Origin: Pelomonas sp. Root1217
GTDB taxonomy: Bacteria > Pseudomonadota > Gammaproteobacteria > Burkholderiales > Burkholderiaceae_C
Direction of reading: 5' to 3'
DNA: 64,000 nucleotides
NCBI RefSeq assembly: GCF_001425705.1
Contig: NZ_LMDC01000001.1
Span: 434,001 to 498,000, forward strand
The stretch's first letter is position 1. Each line of letters opens with the position of its first letter. Below are positions 32,330-42,804 of this stretch, in pieces. Made by a program: the position numbers and the translations under genes. Below the pieces are notes generated by a model, which made no database searches, was not told the origin of the DNA, and worked only from the letters and a program-made list of their open reading frames with translations.

Positions 32330-33109
32330 CTAGTGCAGACCGGCAGGAGCGGCCTGCCCACCGATGAAGGCGGCCAGGGCGGGGAAGTCGGGAATGCAGA
32401 TGTCGCGCCGGCTCTTCTCGTGGAAGGCGATGAGCCGCGCTCGCGCGAGCCTGGACATCACGCGGCTGACGGTCTCCAGCGTCAGGCCGAGGTAGTTGCC
32501 GATCTCGGCGCGCGTCAGGCGCAGGCTGATCTGGTCGGTCCTGAGGCCGCGCGCGGCCAGGGAATCGGCCCAGTTGTGCAGAAAGGTCACCACGCGGGCG
32601 GCAGCTGGCAGGCCGCACAGCGCCGTCAGCGCCTCGCGTTCGCGCACGATCTCGTCGCTCATGGCCTCATGCACGGCGGCCATCAGGCGGGGATGGTCGG
32701 CGCAGGCCTTCAGCAGCGCGTCGTAGCGCAGCGTCCAGACCGCGGCGGTGTCCATCGCAATGGCCTCGCAGGCGTAGCTGCCCTTGGCGATGGCGCTGAA
32801 GCCAAGCCAGTCGCCACGGAACTTCAGCCCCACGACCTGCTCGTGGCCTTCGGCCGACGTGCTGATCAGCTTGAAGCAGCCGGAATTGAGCACGTGCAGC
32901 TGCTCGAAACGCTCACCCGGCCGGTACAGCACGTCACCGGCATGGACGATGCGGCGCCTGGGCGCCAGCACGGCCTCCAGCAGCTTCAGCTCGTCAGCGA
33001 TGCGCTGACCCTTGGACGGCGCCGCGCTGGCGTGGATTGCGCCGTTGGCGGCGAAGGCGGTGCTGCATCGTGCAGCAGGGGGCGGGGTATGCGAGGGACT
33101 GGCGTGCAT
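32330..33109 (-). CDS. Crp/Fnr family regulator, FNR-like but without the FeS cysteines
   Basis: A 259-residue regulator with cyclic-nucleotide-binding-like beta-roll (about 60-160), dimer helix and helix-turn-helix (LTRAEIGNYLGLTLETVSRV). The recognition helix keeps the E-x-x-S-R of FNR, so it should read TTGAT-type half-sites. Unlike FNR, it lacks the N-terminal Cys cluster: the first 35 residues contain one Cys only (C15), and the position of E. coli Cys122 is Trp. It therefore probably does not sense oxygen by a [4Fe-4S] cluster. The ATG at 33109 has GGAG upstream. It heads a same-strand series with the GGDEF-EAL and Aer-like genes and adjoins genes that carry FNR boxes. Confidence 0.88.
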   Translation of the reverse strand: MHASPSHTPPPAARCSTAFAANGAIHASAAPSKGQRIADELKLLEAVLAPRRRIVHAGDVLYRPGERFEQLHVLNSGCFKLISTSAEGHEQVVGLKFRGDWLGFSAIAKGSYACEAIAMDTAAVWTLRYDALLKACADHPRLMAAVHEAMSDEIVREREALTALCGLPAAARVVTFLHNWADSLAARGLRTDQISLRLTRAEIGNYLGLTLETVSRVMSRLARARLIAFHEKSRRDICIPDFPALAAFIGGQAAPAGLH

Positions 33110-33261
33110 GGTGGTCTCCGTTGGGGCTGCTCGAAGAAATCGATGCTAGGCAGGCCCCGCCAATGACGTGTCAACACGCGACATCGCTAGGTAGCGGTGC
33201 GTAAACACGGCGTGAACCGCTGGTGACGGAGCCGCCCCACACCAGGCCCGACTCCTCCGGC

Positions 33262-33275
33262 TTGACCTTGGTCAA
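33262..33275 (+). promoter_or_regulatory. FNR-type box, OTC-like gene
   Basis: TTGACCTTGGTCAA is a perfect palindrome of the TTGAY-N4-RTCAA type. Its centre (33268.5) lies exactly 41.5 bp before the A of the ATG at 33310, and TACGCT at 33297-33302 is placed as a -10 element. This is class II FNR activation geometry if transcription starts at the initiation codon. Confidence 0.75.
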
Positions 33276-33309
33276 GGGCCGCGCAGTCGGCCTCGCTACG
33301 CTGCCGCTC

Positions 33310-33804
33310 ATGTGTTCCGAGGCTCGCGAAGGCGCTGATGGCGCCGACTTCTTCCACCCCCTTGATGCCGCTGCCGTGCTGCGGCAGGCGAGGGTGTTCA
33401 TGAGGCTGCAAGCCCCGGAGATGAAGCTGTTGACGGGCAGGCGGCTGGCGCTGATGTCGCCGCACCCGGGCGACGACGAGGGGAGCGAATTCGCGCAGGC
33501 GGCGACGGCGCTCGGTGCCCATGTGTCCTTCGTCCAGCCTGGGCTTGACGAGCACAGCAGCCCCTGGCGGGTCGATGCAACGGCACGCATGCTGAGCCGT
33601 CTCTACGACGCGGTTGAATGTCAGCACCTGCCCGCCGCCCTGACAGGGCGCATCGCCCGCAGTGCCGACATTCCTGTCTTCGCCGGGCTGGCGACCGCCG
33701 GGCATCCCACGGCCGTGCTCGCACAGGCACTGGACGGCGATATCGTATGGGCCGTCAAGCGGCGCAAGATCCTGCAGGCGGCGCTGGTCGTCAGCCTGGC
33801 GTGA
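33310..33804 (+). CDS. Ornithine carbamoyltransferase-like protein, N-terminal half only
   Basis: A 164-residue protein that aligns with the carbamoyl-phosphate-binding half of ornithine carbamoyltransferase: DFFHPLDAAAVLRQARVFM, GRRLALMSPHPGDDEGSEFA, LGAHVSFVQP and DIPVFAGLATAGHPTAVLAQ correspond to conserved OTC blocks. The catalytic STRTR motif is replaced by HPGDD and HPTQ by HPTA, and the ornithine-binding half is missing, so it is unlikely to be an active carbamoyltransferase. Length and intact frame suggest a maintained pseudoenzyme rather than debris. The ATG at 33310 is chosen because it coincides with the start predicted from the FNR box. A GTG 87 bp upstream would place the box inside the gene. 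Confidence 0.65.
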   Translation: MCSEAREGADGADFFHPLDAAAVLRQARVFMRLQAPEMKLLTGRRLALMSPHPGDDEGSEFAQAATALGAHVSFVQPGLDEHSSPWRVDATARMLSRLYDAVECQHLPAALTGRIARSADIPVFAGLATAGHPTAVLAQALDGDIVWAVKRRKILQAALVVSLA

Positions 33805-33860
33805 CGAGCCGCGCTTCGGTGGATGCAAGCCCAGGTTGATCGGATTTTCCTGGTCCGTCG

Positions 33861-36533
33861 TCATGAGCCGCCACAGACCGGGGCCCGGCTGGCGACGACG
33901 ACCTCCGACGGCTGAGCGCCGCCTGGCCTGACGTCAAAATCCATGCGTTTAAGCAGGTTCAGCATCGCCCGGTTCTCGCGCAGCACATGGCCGACGACGC
34001 GCTGAGTGCCGCGCGAGGCGGCGTAGTCCAGCAGGGCCTGCATCAGCAGGCGGCCGAGGCCCCGGCGCTGCTGGTTGCTGCGCACGAGCAGGCCGAACTC
34101 CGCCTCGACGTTGTCGGGATCGCGCACGAGACGGGCCACGCCGAGCGTGCGAGGACCGCCGGCAGCCTGCTCATCGACGATGACGAGCGCCATCTCGCGC
34201 TCGTAGTCGATCTGCGTCATCCGGGCGAGATCGTCATGCGTCAGCGAGTGCGGCGCCTGGAAGAAGCGCATGCGCAGGTCTTCGGGGCTGCAGGCTTCCA
34301 GGAACTCGCGGTGCAGGGCCTCGTCCTCCGGCCGGATCGGTCGCATCAGCAGCGTGCTGCCTTGGCAGTGCAGCGTGCGCACCAGCTCCGCCGGGTAGGG
34401 GCGCACGGCGAAGCGCGCCATGCCCGAGGGCGCCGACGCCGACAGGCGCACGCGGGCGTCCAGCGCAAGCACGCCTTGCTCGTCGGCCAGCAGCGGGTTG
34501 ATGTCCAGCTCGGCCATTTCGGGCAGATCGGCCAGCATCTGCCCGACGGCGGTCAACGCGTCGCACAAGGCGTCGATGTGGGCTGCCGGCCGCCCGCGAT
34601 AACCGGCCAGCAGCCGGGCCACCCGGGTGCGGTCGATCAGCTCGCGTGCCAGCGCGCGGTTCAACGGCGGCAGCGCCACGGCGCGGTCGCCCAGCACCTC
34701 CACCGCGATGCCGCCCTGGCCGAACAGCACTATCGGGCCGAAGATCTGATCCACGTGCGCACCGACGATGAGCTCCTGGGCCCGGGGGCGCTGCACCATG
34801 GCTTGCACGCTGAACCCCTCGATGTGGGCTTCCGGGCGCGTGGCCTGCAGATGATCGAGCATCTCCTGCGCGGCCAGGCGCACGGCGGCTTCGCCGCGCA
34901 GGTCCAGGCGCACGCCGCCGGAGTCCGACTTGTGCAGGATGGCCGCGGACACCACCTTCAGCACCACCGGCCCGTCGATGCGCCGGGCCGCCTCGGCTGC
35001 GGCCTGTGGCGAAGCGTCGACGCGCAGCGTCGGCACGACCGGGATGCCATAGGCAGCCAGCAGTGCCTTGGCATCGATCTCGTCCAGCCATTCGCGGCCG
35101 GCGGCCAGCGCCGCGTCGATGATGCCGCGCGCCCGGCCGATGTCCGGCTTGCCGATCGTGCTGGCGCTCGGGGTCTGGCGCAATGCCGTCTGGTTGCGCC
35201 GGTAGGTCTGCATCAGCGAGAACGCGCGCACGGCTTCCTCGGGCGTCTCGTAGCCTGCAATGCCGGCCGTCTCGAATGCGCTGCGCGCCGGCGCCACCGT
35301 GTCGCCGCCCAGCCAGCAGCTCAGCACGCGGCCCCGGTGCTCGGCGATCAGTGGCGCACATGCCTGGGCGATGGCTTCGCTGGAGACGATGGCCGTCGGT
35401 GCGTGCACGAACAGCAACGCGCCTGCTTCGGGAGCGTCGAACAGGGCCTTGAGCGTGTCCACGTAACGTTGCGCCGGTGCGTCGCCAATGATGTCGATCG
35501 GGTTGCCGTGCGACCAGCCTGCGGGCAGCACGGCGTTGAGCCGCTTCATCAGCGCCTCGCCGGGGCGCGCCAGCGTCACGCCCAGCGGCGCGGCGGCATC
35601 GGCCACCATCACGCCGGCGCCGCCGCCATTGGTCATGACCATCAGCTCGCGGCTGTGGTTGTCGCGGAAGCGCGCGAGCGTCTGCGCGGCGATGAAGAGG
35701 TCCTTCAGCGTGTCCACGCGCAGCATGCCGGCGCGCCGGATGGCGGCGTCGAACACGATGTCCTCGCCGGCCAGTGCGCCCGTGTGCGAAGCGGCGGCCT
35801 TCATGCCGGCAGGTACGCGGCCGGCCTTGACGACGATCACCGGCTTGATGCGGGCCGCGGCACGCGCCGCCGACATGAACTTGCGTGGCGACGTGATGGA
35901 TTCGATGTAGAGCAGGATGGCGCGCGTGTGCCGATCCGTGGCCAGGTGGTCCAGCAGGTCGGCGAAGTCGACATCGGCGTGCTCGCCCAGCGAGACCAGG
36001 TGCGAGAAGCCGATGCGCTCGGCGTTGGCCCAATCCAGCAGGGCCGTCAGCAATGCGCCCGACTGGGACACCAGCGCCAGTTCGCCGGGCAGCGCCTTCG
36101 CCTGGGTGAAACTGGCATTCAGCCCCAGATGCGGGCTCAGCAGGCCGATGCAGTTGGGCCCCAGCAGCCGCAGCGTGTGCGGCCGGGCGGCGTCCAGCGC
36201 CGCCTGCTTCTGCGCCGGCGTGAGGCCAGCCGTCACGATGATGGCGGCGCGCGCGCCGCGCGCGCCCAGTTGCCCGATCAACGGCGCGATGGTGTCCGGT
36301 GGCGTGCACAGCACGGCCAGGTCCGGCGTGAACGGCAGCTCGGCGACGCCGGCAAAGCAGGGCTGGCCGTCCAGCGTGGCCAGCCGCGGGTTCACGGCCG
36401 CCATCGGGCCCTTGAAGCCGCCGCTCAGCAGGTTGCGCCAGACGGTGGTGCCCACGCGACCGGGTTTGTCGGAAGCGCCGAAGACGGCCACCGACTGGGG
36501 CGCGAGCAGGCGGTCGAGATGGCGCTGGGTCAT
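33861..36533 (-). CDS. PatZ-like ADP-forming acyl-CoA ligase fused to GNAT acetyltransferase
   Basis: An 890-residue fusion. The first 700 residues resemble NDP-forming acetyl-CoA synthetase: CoA-binding domain (SVAVFGASDKPGRVGTTVWR), succinyl-CoA-ligase-like domains with SHTGALAG near residue 244, which keeps the phospho-His, and an ATP-grasp domain (VVLKVVSAAILHKSDSGGVR). The last 160 residues are a GNAT domain (RRGLGRLLMQALLDYAASRG, then ENRAMLNLLKRMDFDVR). This is the Pat/PatZ layout of protein lysine acetyltransferases that tune acetyl-CoA synthetase. The ATG at 36533 lies exactly 41.5 bp from the centre of an FNR-type box and has no convincing ribosome site. It follows the universal stress gene by 70 bp. 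Confidence 0.85.
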   Translation of the reverse strand: MTQRHLDRLLAPQSVAVFGASDKPGRVGTTVWRNLLSGGFKGPMAAVNPRLATLDGQPCFAGVAELPFTPDLAVLCTPPDTIAPLIGQLGARGARAAIIVTAGLTPAQKQAALDAARPHTLRLLGPNCIGLLSPHLGLNASFTQAKALPGELALVSQSGALLTALLDWANAERIGFSHLVSLGEHADVDFADLLDHLATDRHTRAILLYIESITSPRKFMSAARAAARIKPVIVVKAGRVPAGMKAAASHTGALAGEDIVFDAAIRRAGMLRVDTLKDLFIAAQTLARFRDNHSRELMVMTNGGGAGVMVADAAAPLGVTLARPGEALMKRLNAVLPAGWSHGNPIDIIGDAPAQRYVDTLKALFDAPEAGALLFVHAPTAIVSSEAIAQACAPLIAEHRGRVLSCWLGGDTVAPARSAFETAGIAGYETPEEAVRAFSLMQTYRRNQTALRQTPSASTIGKPDIGRARGIIDAALAAGREWLDEIDAKALLAAYGIPVVPTLRVDASPQAAAEAARRIDGPVVLKVVSAAILHKSDSGGVRLDLRGEAAVRLAAQEMLDHLQATRPEAHIEGFSVQAMVQRPRAQELIVGAHVDQIFGPIVLFGQGGIAVEVLGDRAVALPPLNRALARELIDRTRVARLLAGYRGRPAAHIDALCDALTAVGQMLADLPEMAELDINPLLADEQGVLALDARVRLSASAPSGMARFAVRPYPAELVRTLHCQGSTLLMRPIRPEDEALHREFLEACSPEDLRMRFFQAPHSLTHDDLARMTQIDYEREMALVIVDEQAAGGPRTLGVARLVRDPDNVEAEFGLLVRSNQQRRGLGRLLMQALLDYAASRGTQRVVGHVLRENRAMLNLLKRMDFDVRPGGAQPSEVVVASRAPVCGGS

Positions 36534-36567
36534 GGGCGCATCGTCGCCACCGCCCGCAGCCCGACCC

Positions 36568-36581
36568 TTGCGCTGGATCAA
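36568..36581 (-). promoter_or_regulatory. FNR-type box, PatZ-like gene
   Basis: Read on the minus strand the site is TTGATCCAGCGCAA, one perfect TTGAT half and a weaker CGCAA half. Its centre (36574.5) is exactly 41.5 bp before the A of the ATG at 36533. The identical 14-mer occurs at 40011-40024 in front of the MBL operon. A -10 element here is weak (GACGAT). Confidence 0.65.
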
Positions 36582-38486: not shown

Positions 38487-39865
38487 GGCAATTCCTTGGG
38501 CGCCACGGTGTCGAGGTACTCGGGCACCGAGGCCGGCCAGCCCAGGCTTTCTTCGATGGCCTGGCGCAGCGCGTCGGCGGCTTGCGGTTCGCCGTGGGTC
38601 ACATAGACGTGGCTGGGCGGGCGCGGCAGCGTTTGCAGCCAGGCCAGCAACTGGGGTTGGTCGGCATGCGAGGACATGCCGTCGATGGCGGCCACCTCGG
38701 CGCGCACGGGCACCCACTGGCCGTGCATGCGGATGCGGTCCGCGCCGGCCAGCAGGGTGGCGCCGCGCGTGCCGGCGGCCTGATGGCCGACGAAGACGAT
38801 GCTGTTCCTGGGGTCCGGTGCCAGGGCCTCCAGGTGGTGCAGCACGCGGCCACCCGTGGCCATGCCGCTGGCGGCGACGATGACGCTCGGATAGCTGGGA
38901 TGGTTCAGAGCGCGCGATTCCTCCTCGGTGCGGACGTAGCGCACCTTGTCGACGAGGTCGCGGCGCTCAGGCTCGGTCAGCCTGTGTTCATCGGCATGGA
39001 CCTGCACCAGGCGCGTGACCTGGGTGGCCATGGGGCTGTTCAGGTAGATGGGCAGGTCGGCGATGCGCCCGGCGGCTTTCAGGCGCAGCAGGGTGTGCAG
39101 GATGGCCTGTGCCCGCCCGACGGCGAAGGCCGGGATCAGCGTCGTGCCGCCGCGGGCCGCAGTGCGCGCGATGACGTCGCAGAGCTGGTCTGCGCTGGGC
39201 GTTTCAGAGTGCCGCCGATCGCCGTAGGTGGACTCGATGACGACGATGTCGGCCGCGTGTGCCGCGGCCGGCGGCAACATGACGGTGTCGTCGCTGCGCC
39301 CGAGGTCGCCCGAGAAGGTGATCGAGCTGGCGCCCGTTGTGAGGTGGACGCTGGCGGCGCCAATGATGTGGCCGGCATGGCTGAATGTCGTCGTCAGGCC
39401 GGGGACGGGTTCAAACACCTGGCCGAAGGCATGACGGCGCACCTGCTTGAGGCTGTGCAGGGCCTGGGCCTCGGTGTACAGCGGCAGCGCCGGTGAATGC
39501 TTGCTGAAGCCGTGCCGGTTGGCGTAGCGAGCGTCCTCCTCCTGCAGCCGGCCCGAGTCCGGCAGCAGCACGGACAGCAGGTCGCTGGTGCCAGGCGTTG
39601 CGTGGATGGAGCCGCGAAAGCCCTCCGCCACCAGGCGGGGCAGGAAGCCGCTGTGATCGATATGGGCATGCGTCATCACCACGGCATCGATGGACGCTGC
39701 CGGCACGGGGAAGGGGGCCCAATTGCGCAGGCGCAACTGCTTCAAGCCCTGGAACAGCCCGCAGTCGACGAGCAATCGCCGGCCGCCGAATTCGACGAGG
39801 TAGCGGGAACCGGTCACGGTGCCGGTTGCGCCGAAGAAGCGCAGCTTGAGCTCCGTCGTGCTCAC
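38477..39865 (-). CDS. MBL-fold beta-CASP ribonuclease/hydrolase
   Basis: A 462-residue metallo-beta-lactamase-fold enzyme of the RNA-specific beta-CASP group (YSH1/CPSF73-like). The N-terminus is LKLRFFGATGTVTGSRYLVE; metal motif II is MTHAHIDHSG (HxHxDH, near residue 65); then FSHAGHIIGAASVHL, FSGDLGRSDDTVMLP and the beta-CASP insert (IPAFAVGRAQAILHTL, ASGMATGGRVLHHL, VFVGHQAAGTRGATL) and IDGMSSHADQPQLL, TALQTLP-like WLQTLP and YVTHGEPQAADALR. The start is the GTG at 39865, overlapping the stop of a 29-codon ORF as GTGA, which implies coupled translation. It opens the MBL-adhP-usp operon. Confidence 0.88.
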   Translation of the reverse strand: MSTTELKLRFFGATGTVTGSRYLVEFGGRRLLVDCGLFQGLKQLRLRNWAPFPVPAASIDAVVMTHAHIDHSGFLPRLVAEGFRGSIHATPGTSDLLSVLLPDSGRLQEEDARYANRHGFSKHSPALPLYTEAQALHSLKQVRRHAFGQVFEPVPGLTTTFSHAGHIIGAASVHLTTGASSITFSGDLGRSDDTVMLPPAAAHAADIVVIESTYGDRRHSETPSADQLCDVIARTAARGGTTLIPAFAVGRAQAILHTLLRLKAAGRIADLPIYLNSPMATQVTRLVQVHADEHRLTEPERRDLVDKVRYVRTEEESRALNHPSYPSVIVAASGMATGGRVLHHLEALAPDPRNSIVFVGHQAAGTRGATLLAGADRIRMHGQWVPVRAEVAAIDGMSSHADQPQLLAWLQTLPRPPSHVYVTHGEPQAADALRQAIEESLGWPASVPEYLDTVAPKELPCP

Positions 39866-39951
39866 GGCCGGCGCCCCAGCAGCCAATTCACCGGGCCGCA
39901 GCCCACAATCAGGCGGCGTGCGCGTTCCACCGATCCGACATTGATAACCAT
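39862..39951 (-). CDS. 29-codon leader ORF, DUF2892-like N-terminal fragment
   Basis: ATG at 39951 is preceded by AGGAGG at ideal spacing, the strongest ribosome site in this cluster. The peptide begins MVINVGSVERARRLIVGCGP and continues for nine more residues. It resembles the opening of DUF2892 inner-membrane proteins (N-V-G-x2-(D/E)-R-x2-R-x2-x-G), but stops before the second hydrophobic stretch. Its TGA overlaps the GTG start of the MBL gene (GTGA). It is either a functional micropeptide, a truncated DUF2892 gene, or a translated leader that loads ribosomes onto the MBL gene. Confidence 0.55.
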   Translation of the reverse strand: MVINVGSVERARRLIVGCGPVNWLLGRRP

Positions 39952-39982: not shown

Positions 39983-40036
39983 AGCGTAGGCCGGCCTACT
40001 GCCGGTGGCCTTGCGCTGGATCAAGCGCGCTTGATC
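39983..40036 (-). promoter_or_regulatory. FNR-type box and promoter of the MBL-adhP-usp operon
   Basis: On the minus strand TTGATCCAGCGCAA (40024 to 40011) is identical to the box before the PatZ-like gene. An 18-bp perfect palindrome, GATCAAGCGCGCTTGATC (40019-40036), overlaps it and adds a second TTGATC half-site. TACGCT (39988 to 39983) is a suitable -10 element; with the box centre at -41.5 the start would be near 39976, giving a 25-nt leader with an AGGAGG site. A 14-bp palindrome (39986-39999, GTAGGCCGGCCTAC) spans the -10 region. Confidence 0.65.
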
Positions 40037-42086: not shown

Positions 42087-42804
42087 TCCGAACTGGCTGC
42101 GCCCGGACTGGCCGGGCGTGACGGCCTTCATGACCACTCGCGGCTCCAACTTCGGCCGCAAGGCGGGCGACCCCGAGCTGGCCAAGGCCAACCGCATCGG
42201 ACTCGCCGGATTGCTCGGTGCGCGGCCCGTCTTTCTCGATCAGGTCCATGGCGCCGATGTCGTGCGCCTGCGCGCCGATTGGCACGACGACAACGCGCCC
42301 AAGGCGGATGCGGCCGTGTCGACCGATCCGGACCTGGCCGTGGCCATCCTGGTCGCCGACTGCCTGCCCGTGCTGTTCGCAGCGCCGGGCGGCGTGGCCG
42401 GCGCGCATGCCGGCTGGCGCGGCCTGGCGGCCGGCGTGCTGGAGAACACGGTGGCCGAGCTGTGCGACGCAGCGAAATGCCAGCCCGGCGATGTGAAAGC
42501 CTGGCTCGGCGCCTGCATCGGCCCCGCGGCCTTCGAGGTCGGCCCGGAGGTCGTTGCGGCTTTCGGCCGTGAGCCCATCGAACGCGACCAGCCCGGCTTC
42601 CTCTACCGGCCCAACCCCGAGCCTCGCTGGCGCGCCGATCTGCCCCTGTTGGCTCGCGAAAGATTGATCTCGGTCAATGTCACCCAAATCAGCGGCGGCT
42701 CGTGGTGCACGCTGACGGATGATTCACGCTTCTTTTCGTTCCGGGGCGAGGCCCTCGGCCGGCCCCGGGGCCGCATGGCCGCCTGCATCTCCTTGCGCGG
42801 CTAG
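42076..42804 (+). CDS. pgeF: YfiH/PgeF family polyphenol oxidase/purine nucleoside phosphorylase-like
   Basis: A 242-residue Zn/Cu protein of the laccase-domain (DUF152) family, implicated in peptidoglycan editing and in purine nucleoside phosphorolysis. The metal-binding triad is visible: LDQVHGADVV (His), VADCLPVLF (Cys) and AGAHAGWRGLAAG (His), followed by LGACIGPAAFEVGPEV and the final DDSRFFSFRGE and GRMAACISLRG. The ATG at 42076 overlaps the maiA end; an upstream start would only extend into maiA. Its last 81 bases overlap the antisense 3' end of the small membrane-protein gene. Confidence 0.88.
   Translation: MQPDPNWLRPDWPGVTAFMTTRGSNFGRKAGDPELAKANRIGLAGLLGARPVFLDQVHGADVVRLRADWHDDNAPKADAAVSTDPDLAVAILVADCLPVLFAAPGGVAGAHAGWRGLAAGVLENTVAELCDAAKCQPGDVKAWLGACIGPAAFEVGPEVVAAFGREPIERDQPGFLYRPNPEPRWRADLPLLARERLISVNVTQISGGSWCTLTDDSRFFSFRGEALGRPRGRMAACISLRG

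Follow-up and report, generated by a model that had tools for sequence, protein, structure and literature searches.

Fnr-type boxes at the class II distance from start codons and predicted leaderless genes in Pelomonas sp. Root1217 and its relatives

Introduction

In Escherichia coli, a class II activator is centred at −41.5 relative to the transcription start, and the −10 hexamer is located at −12 to −7. At class II promoters of FNR and CRP, a leader with a Shine-Dalgarno (SD) site lies between the transcription start and the start codon. Here we describe two genes on opposite strands of a 64,000-nt stretch of Pelomonas sp. Root1217 (RefSeq assembly GCF_001425705.1, contig NZ_LMDC01000001.1, positions 434,001 to 498,000; hereafter the window), namely gene 1, encoding a carbamoyltransferase half-domain protein, and gene 2, encoding a Pat-like protein, each preceded by an FNR-type box. 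They resemble the class II promoters of E. coli in the box centre-to-start distance of 41.5, in a matching −10-like hexamer and in the box letters TTGAY-N4-RTCAA, and differ from them in that the predicted transcription start falls on the start codon itself. Judged from this geometry and its conservation, both genes very probably have class II Crp/Fnr-dependent promoters and leaderless mRNAs, a design that would recur in the Roseateles regulon.

Leaderless mRNAs in proteobacteria are usually treated as scattered exceptions, and 70S ribosomes presumably enter at their 5' AUG. In Burkholderia cenocepacia J2315, a betaproteobacterium that resembles the present case in having leaderless genes, differential RNA sequencing (dRNA-seq) mapped 72 primary starts to the very position of an annotated start codon and 42 more within 10 nt; tRNAs made up 24 of the leaderless transcripts, and directly upstream lay a promoter motif (PMC4603805). 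It differs in that its leaderless set is enriched for transcriptional regulators, and the word FNR is absent from the text (PMC4603805). Bradyrhizobium japonicum, with 192 starts exactly at start codons, is likewise a Gram-negative bacterium with leaderless mRNAs and also has an FNR-type low-oxygen regulator, FixK2 (PMC4842269 and its reference list). It differs in its extended −10 motif, TGnTA, and the available passages do not contain a box-to-ATG rule (PMC4842269). These two dRNA-seq studies, as far as available, indicate that leaderless genes exist as a kind (PMC4603805, PMC4842269). In the accessible part of the open PMC literature (subscription journals being outside the scope), no report of FNR-activated leaderless protein genes in these bacteria was found, and leaderless gave no match together with Roseateles, nor with FNR box or Anr box.

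Two boxes at 41.5 bp from start codons

A sequence-only reading of the window had placed both boxes 41.5 bp before a start codon, and this distance holds: it runs from the centre at 33268.5 to the A at 33310 on the plus strand, and from the centre at 36574.5 to the A at 36533 on the minus strand (Table 1). Compared with TTGATNNNNATCAA, each of the two boxes has two mismatches. Sites with at most two mismatches to TTGATN4ATCAA number 17 in the window against a mean of 6.35 in shuffles, so boxes as a class are enriched, but one loose site by itself means little. The spacing of box and hexamer in both genes is that of a putative class II promoter with the box centre near −41.5.

Table 1. Positions of the boxes, predicted hexamers and genes in the window
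Feature	Positions	Strand	Remarks
FNR-type box 1, TTGACCTTGGTCAA	33262..33275	+	centre 33268.5; 10/10 letters of TTGAYNNNNRTCAA (TTGAYN4RTCAA)
Predicted −10 hexamer of gene 1, TACGCT	33297..33302	+	first base 28.5 past box centre; 7 nt before ATG
Gene 1, 164-aa OTCace_N (PF02729) half-domain protein	33310..33804	+	Pfam, NCBIfam; predicted transcription start at or next to 33310
FNR-type box 2, TTGATCCAGCGCAA	36568..36581	-	centre 36574.5; 8/10 letters of TTGAYNNNNRTCAA
Predicted −10 hexamer of gene 2, GACGAT	36540..36545	-	first base 29.5 past box centre; 6 nt before ATG
Gene 2, 890-aa Pat-like protein	33861..36533	-	Pfam, NCBIfam; predicted transcription start 36533
Divergent Crp/Fnr-family regulator without FNR cluster cysteines	32330..33109	-	possible alternative activator of gene 1
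Leadered contrast box, same 14 letters as box 2	40011..40024	-	TACGCT at 39983-39988, offset 29.5

Conservation in close orthologs

Whether relatives keep the same distance from box to ATG had been named as a deciding check, and we examined it in ortholog sets picked by protein similarity and not by distance. Homologs of gene 1 were searched for in 149 genomes, and 42 genomes gave any match. Twenty of the 149 are of the genus Roseateles/Pelomonas, one of them being the window's own 6.6-Mb genome, G000, with the window on its contig C1. Relatives with 56-90% identity are found in Pelomonas sp. Root1237, Pelomonas sp. Root405, Roseateles saccharophilus DSM 654, R. caseinilyticus, P. aquatica, R. 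puraquae and several metagenome-assembled genomes. All 12 close genus orthologs (56-100% identity) start with ATG and have a perfect 10/10 box, and their distance is 41.5 (8) or 42.5 (4). With the 12 sequences lined up on their boxes, all ten box letters as well as TACGCT (28.5-33.5) were invariant, each TACGCT column carrying 2.0 bits, and many adjoining columns varied. In three of these orthologs (L025-L027) there is an in-frame stop at −9, and therefore the ATG is the first possible start there. A longer reading frame of gene 1 from a GTG at 33223 was ruled out by in-frame stops before the ATG in several orthologs. A codon-position test of gene 1 codons 2-20 gave a weak third-position excess (0.47 vs 0.40 and 0.35), which supports coding only mildly. 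No match to gene 1 was found in three genus genomes (G004, G010, G017).

Gene 1 encodes only the carbamoyl-phosphate-binding half of ornithine/aspartate carbamoyltransferase. Ornithine carbamoyltransferase has two domains and the carbamoyl-phosphate motif STRTR. Gene 1 has PF02729 alone, with GDDEG aligned to STRTR of its best solved relative. Because the product lacks STRTR, it is probably no enzyme.

Gene 2 combines an acyl-CoA synthetase of the ADP-forming type with a GNAT domain. A close ortholog (74-100% identity) was found in 17 of the 20 genus genomes, one of them (L059) with an in-frame TGA, and the ATG is kept in all 17. Twelve of the 17 have a weaker box at 41.5-43.5, of the form TTGAY-N6-CAA (three at 41.5, six at 42.5 and three at 43.5), and all 12 have a hexamer NANNAT at offset 29.5. 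None of the 13 out-of-genus gene 2 orthologs examined has a TTGAY-N6-CAA box at the same distance. A longer reading frame of gene 2 from a TTG inside the box was ruled out by in-frame stops within the box or before the ATG in several orthologs. In five orthologs (L048, L050, L052, L055, L057) the AT of the hexamer followed by G makes an in-frame ATG at −9, which is absent elsewhere; gene callers could choose this codon, even though it would precede the predicted transcript. Of the five orthologs without a box, at least three have a TGA no more than about 20 nt before their start.

The predicted leaderless class II architecture is supported by this check on ortholog distances. In the families checked, the −10-like hexamer is at most 1 bp off the class II position.

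Box-to-ATG distances across the genus

The pattern TTGAYN4RTCAA-N25-45-ATG was searched in the 20 genus genomes, and 312 matches were found, compared with 26 for the reversed pattern used as a control. Distances were taken from 299 of the 312 matches, leaving aside 5 from G000 and the 8 from G010. Seventy of the 299 box-ATG pairs lie at 41.5 or 42.5 (40 and 30, respectively), vs 28 expected if uniform, and the nearest distances, 37.5-40.5 and 43.5-46.5, have 3-15 pairs each. We examined all 88 loci at 40.5-43.5 and 60 loci at other distances within 34.5-46.5, among them 7 of the 14 at 38.5. An ATG was regarded as coding-start-like when its open frame spanned 70 codons or more and showed the high GC at third positions that marks a coding frame. 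Such ATGs were found at 33/40 loci at 41.5 and 20/30 at 42.5 (53/70), compared with 14/78 at eleven other distances (Fisher p = 9e-13, orthologs being counted though not independent).

Other genes with the same architecture

Gene families were taken from BLAST clusters, and family searches were made on representatives only. hemN (TIGR00538 for L130) clusters at these distances in 17 genomes and gene 1 in 12. An HtrA-like protease is represented by 10 proteins from 9 genomes; it is trypsin-like with weak PDZ similarity and, by reading, a signal-like N-terminus. A cluster of fnr covers 9 genomes, eight at 42.5 and one at 43.5. Smaller cases comprise two P-type ATPases, a protein called PPK2-like by reading, and a PilJ/HAMP protein; a DUF2189 protein (43.5) and a hemerythrin (40.5) come close. 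The window's own genome has strict boxes before gene 1 (41.5), hemN (41.5), the HtrA-like protease (42.5), fnr (43.5) and a thioredoxin-ArsA fusion (40.5). In R. puraquae CCUG 52769 the distance is 42.5 for gene 1, 43.5 for gene 2 and 41.5 for both hemN and the HtrA-like protease; R. saccharophilus DSM 654 has the arrangement at gene 1, hemN and the HtrA-like protease, and no box at its gene 2 ortholog. Further strict boxes in this genome precede candidate leadered genes, e.g. at 62.5 and 73.5-77.5, and therefore the regulon is mixed. The thioredoxin-ArsA fusion gene (L077 1509-3001, G000:C12) has a perfect box, a CACAGT hexamer and an ATG at 40.5, and is in this respect like hemN.

The hexamer begins 29.5 past the box centre in hemN (CACAGT in 15/17; 30.5 in two), in the HtrA-like protease (10/10, six of them TAGGGT), in fnr (AA[CG]AAT, 9/9) and in gene 2 (12/12), and 28.5 past it in gene 1 (TACGCT, 12/12). 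In all five families 6, 7 or 8 nt separate the hexamer from the ATG. Upstream starts are excluded by in-frame stops at −9 or −12 in five HtrA orthologs, as well as in the three gene 1 orthologs mentioned above. The box-to-hexamer spacing is constant within each family (hemN has two registers) and length changes fall between hexamer and ATG; therefore, the predicted transcript has 0-2 nt before the AUG.

From these distances we infer the following mechanism. An activator dimer would bind 41.5 bp upstream of the transcription start, and RNA polymerase would recognise a degenerate −10 hexamer spanning roughly −12 to −7. The first transcribed base would be the A of the AUG, or lie 1-2 nt before it. 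With a leader of 0-2 nt, translation would have to proceed without an SD site. This design would recur in the FNR-type regulon of Roseateles, in hemN, gene 1, the HtrA-like protease, fnr, pat and some single cases.

Ribosome sites

It had also been claimed that neither gene has a good ribosome site. This is correct for gene 1, whose duplex with the anti-SD sequence has an energy of −0.3 kcal/mol. In gene 2 the upstream 20 nt do pair (−6.9 kcal/mol); this pairing, read as GGTGG about 14-17 nt upstream, is too far from the start for a normal SD site. For comparison, the neighbouring usp gene has −12.9 kcal/mol, and random 20-mers of the window average −4.5 kcal/mol. Translation of genes 1 and 2 is independently supported because long reading frames are conserved.

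Leadered relatives

A contrast within the window is the gene behind the box at 40011-40024, whose ATG lies 25 nt past the expected start behind AGGAGG (SD energy −10.3). The same region contains a 29-residue open reading frame (39862-39951, minus strand) with a strong SD site and weak YgaP-like transmembrane similarity (E 0.0085, below the cut-off). Its end overlaps a GTG, the possible start of a beta-CASP metallo-hydrolase gene, and it may be a coupled leader peptide. Another box, at 42664-42677, has one mismatch to the FNR consensus and recurs in G007, G011 and G012; it lies within a coding frame by reading, was dismissed as a promoter and is probably not regulatory. The genome also has a second gene-1-like/Crp-Fnr pair (G000:C29:114602-115856), and this second gene-1-like paralog has a 9/10 box and an ATG at 57.5.

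Twenty more distant gene 1 homolog loci (L277-L296, of which L289 is from the genus genome G016) include 16 with a perfect box. In none of the 20 does the first in-frame ATG fall within 40.5-43.5; one carries a GTG at 43.5, and two are listed without an in-frame ATG. For hemN, we sampled 30 loci: the window genome's own and the 29 best among matches from 118 genomes. Three of them have the ATG at 41.5/42.5 (with additional upstream in-frame ATGs in one of the three); in 21 the first in-frame ATG is at 45.5-179.5, and the other six are ambiguous or have no box. As most of the distant gene 1 and hemN homologs have retained the box and yet are leadered, the distance is not simply inherited. Leader loss looks derived within this lineage: we infer that in leadered ancestral genes the start codon was probably brought up to the transcription start.

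Weighing of the alternatives

Several observations weigh against predicted leaderless class II promoters. The histogram of distances has other peaks, with 48 pairs at 33.5 and 24 at 48.5; therefore, ATG counts alone can peak for other reasons. The 33.5 peak is read as the AT of the −10 hexamer followed by G; beside the rise at 48.5, the adjoining distance 49.5 contains a repeated ACCGACCGGTCGGTA-type palindrome. Sequences of the same gene are related and families were grouped partly by eye (those at other distances by eye); counted by such families, with L180 left out as presumed fnr, 10 of 19 coding-start families are at 41.5/42.5 (p = 1.8e-4), or 8 of 17 (p = 0.002) without two weak ones. 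For the −10-like hexamer, the best candidate among four offsets (27.5-30.5) was taken. The sets for hemN, HtrA and fnr were collected via the distance, so their gap of 6-8 nt is partly built in, which is not so for genes 1 and 2. Gene 2 has only an 8/10 box, and the first T is missing from its hexamer GACGAT; since this box is degenerate and loose sites are common in the window, the argument from the two distances is weaker than first stated. Five genus genomes (G001, G008, G011, G015, G016) hold only distant gene 1 homologs (35-44% identity), which have a 9- or 10-letter box and an ATG at about 55-78 and are leadered by reading. Neisseria gonorrhoeae FnrS resembles the predicted transcripts in its anaerobic induction and in having AUG as its first three bases, and differs in being a small RNA; an in-frame leaderless lacZ fusion was inactive, according to the passages available, and therefore an AUG at +1 is no proof of translation (PMC3032703). 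Could the boxes be real and the transcription start further upstream, so that the mRNAs are leadered without a clear SD site and the distance is inherited or otherwise caused? Weak SD pairing is indeed not specific to the class: mean SD energy is −3.8 kcal/mol for the 53 coding starts at 41.5/42.5, and the 14 coding starts at other distances are equally weak (−3.1 kcal/mol). SD-like pairing is not enriched among the former, and SD energies as a positive argument were reduced to this absence of enrichment. The −1 base as an initiator signal was also given little weight, as C is found at −1 in 60/66 starts and in 47/68 SD-led genes as well. Moreover, five of the 17 close gene 2 orthologs have no box (L049, L053, L054, L058, L061), and four of these have no obvious SD site by reading (L061 has GGAGAGG). 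Nevertheless, a start further upstream is improbable, as the hexamer letters of genes 1 and 2 are kept at the class II position with the ATG 6-8 nt later, and the distant gene 1 and hemN homologs keep the box and are mostly leadered. That two distances of 41.5 arose by luck in high-GC DNA with many loose boxes and ATGs is far less probable still. The loose sites of the window would allow it, 17 of the 70 genus pairs at 41.5/42.5 are not coding-start-like, and the ATG lying 41.5 from a strict box in the same genome (L127) begins a frame of just 27 codons. The sequence-only reading had held that the repeat of 41.5 was unlikely to be chance. The pair alone could be luck; with the orthologs (12/12 and 12/17) and the genus-wide peak counted, the statement stands, and chance was dismissed on these counts.

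A different question is which activator acts on these promoters. FNR holds a [4Fe-4S] cluster by an N-terminal CxxCx5C motif and a central Cys. The genome's fnr (C1:864425-865117) encodes these cysteines (CASCNLRELC for the N-terminal motif), its NCBIfam score of 219 bits being just under the cut-off of 228, and fnr and hemN share one box in this genome. The regulator divergent from gene 1 lacks the N-terminal cysteines and has Trp at the position of the central Cys, so it is not an FNR by this measure. Its recognition helix, ETVSR, is identical to that of the genome's FNR. A Crp/Fnr regulator divergently adjoins the gene 1 homolog in 29 of 31 loci, including those of Variovorax, Aquabacterium, Rubrivivax and Rhizobacter; the two exceptions are L285 (contig end) and L294 (where the match is FNR-like instead). 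Thus, either FNR or the divergent paralog could act on gene 1. That the leaderless class II architecture is right and the paralog is the activator of gene 1 is a serious possibility, although not the favoured one, and the signal may then be other than oxygen (e.g. nitric oxide, redox state or a ligand). The conserved neighbourhood, the shared helix and the missing cluster cysteines speak for the paralog. Against it, hemN and fnr have the same type of box without such a neighbour in the stretches seen, and the cysteine-bearing FNR is present and, given the shared recognition helix, expected to bind the same box.

Implications

If FNR-type class II promoters with leaderless mRNAs are the right description of these genes, the spacing rule of one regulator predicts leaderless mRNAs, so that start codon and transcription start could be read from the sequence, and the gene set could be tested together. 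There is also a warning for annotation, as gene callers may misplace starts, for example at the ATG made of promoter letters at −9 in five gene 2 orthologs. The leadered distant homologs and the predicted leaderless genes of Roseateles offer a natural comparison for why leaders are lost. A more speculative reading, less probable than not, is that the genus fused start codons to class II transcription starts several times, each time in an unrelated gene, and so shifted a considerable part of its FNR-type regulon to leaderless mRNAs. In that case low oxygen would turn on a promoter set together with a class of SD-independent translation, and such messages would gain an advantage when normal initiation is limited.

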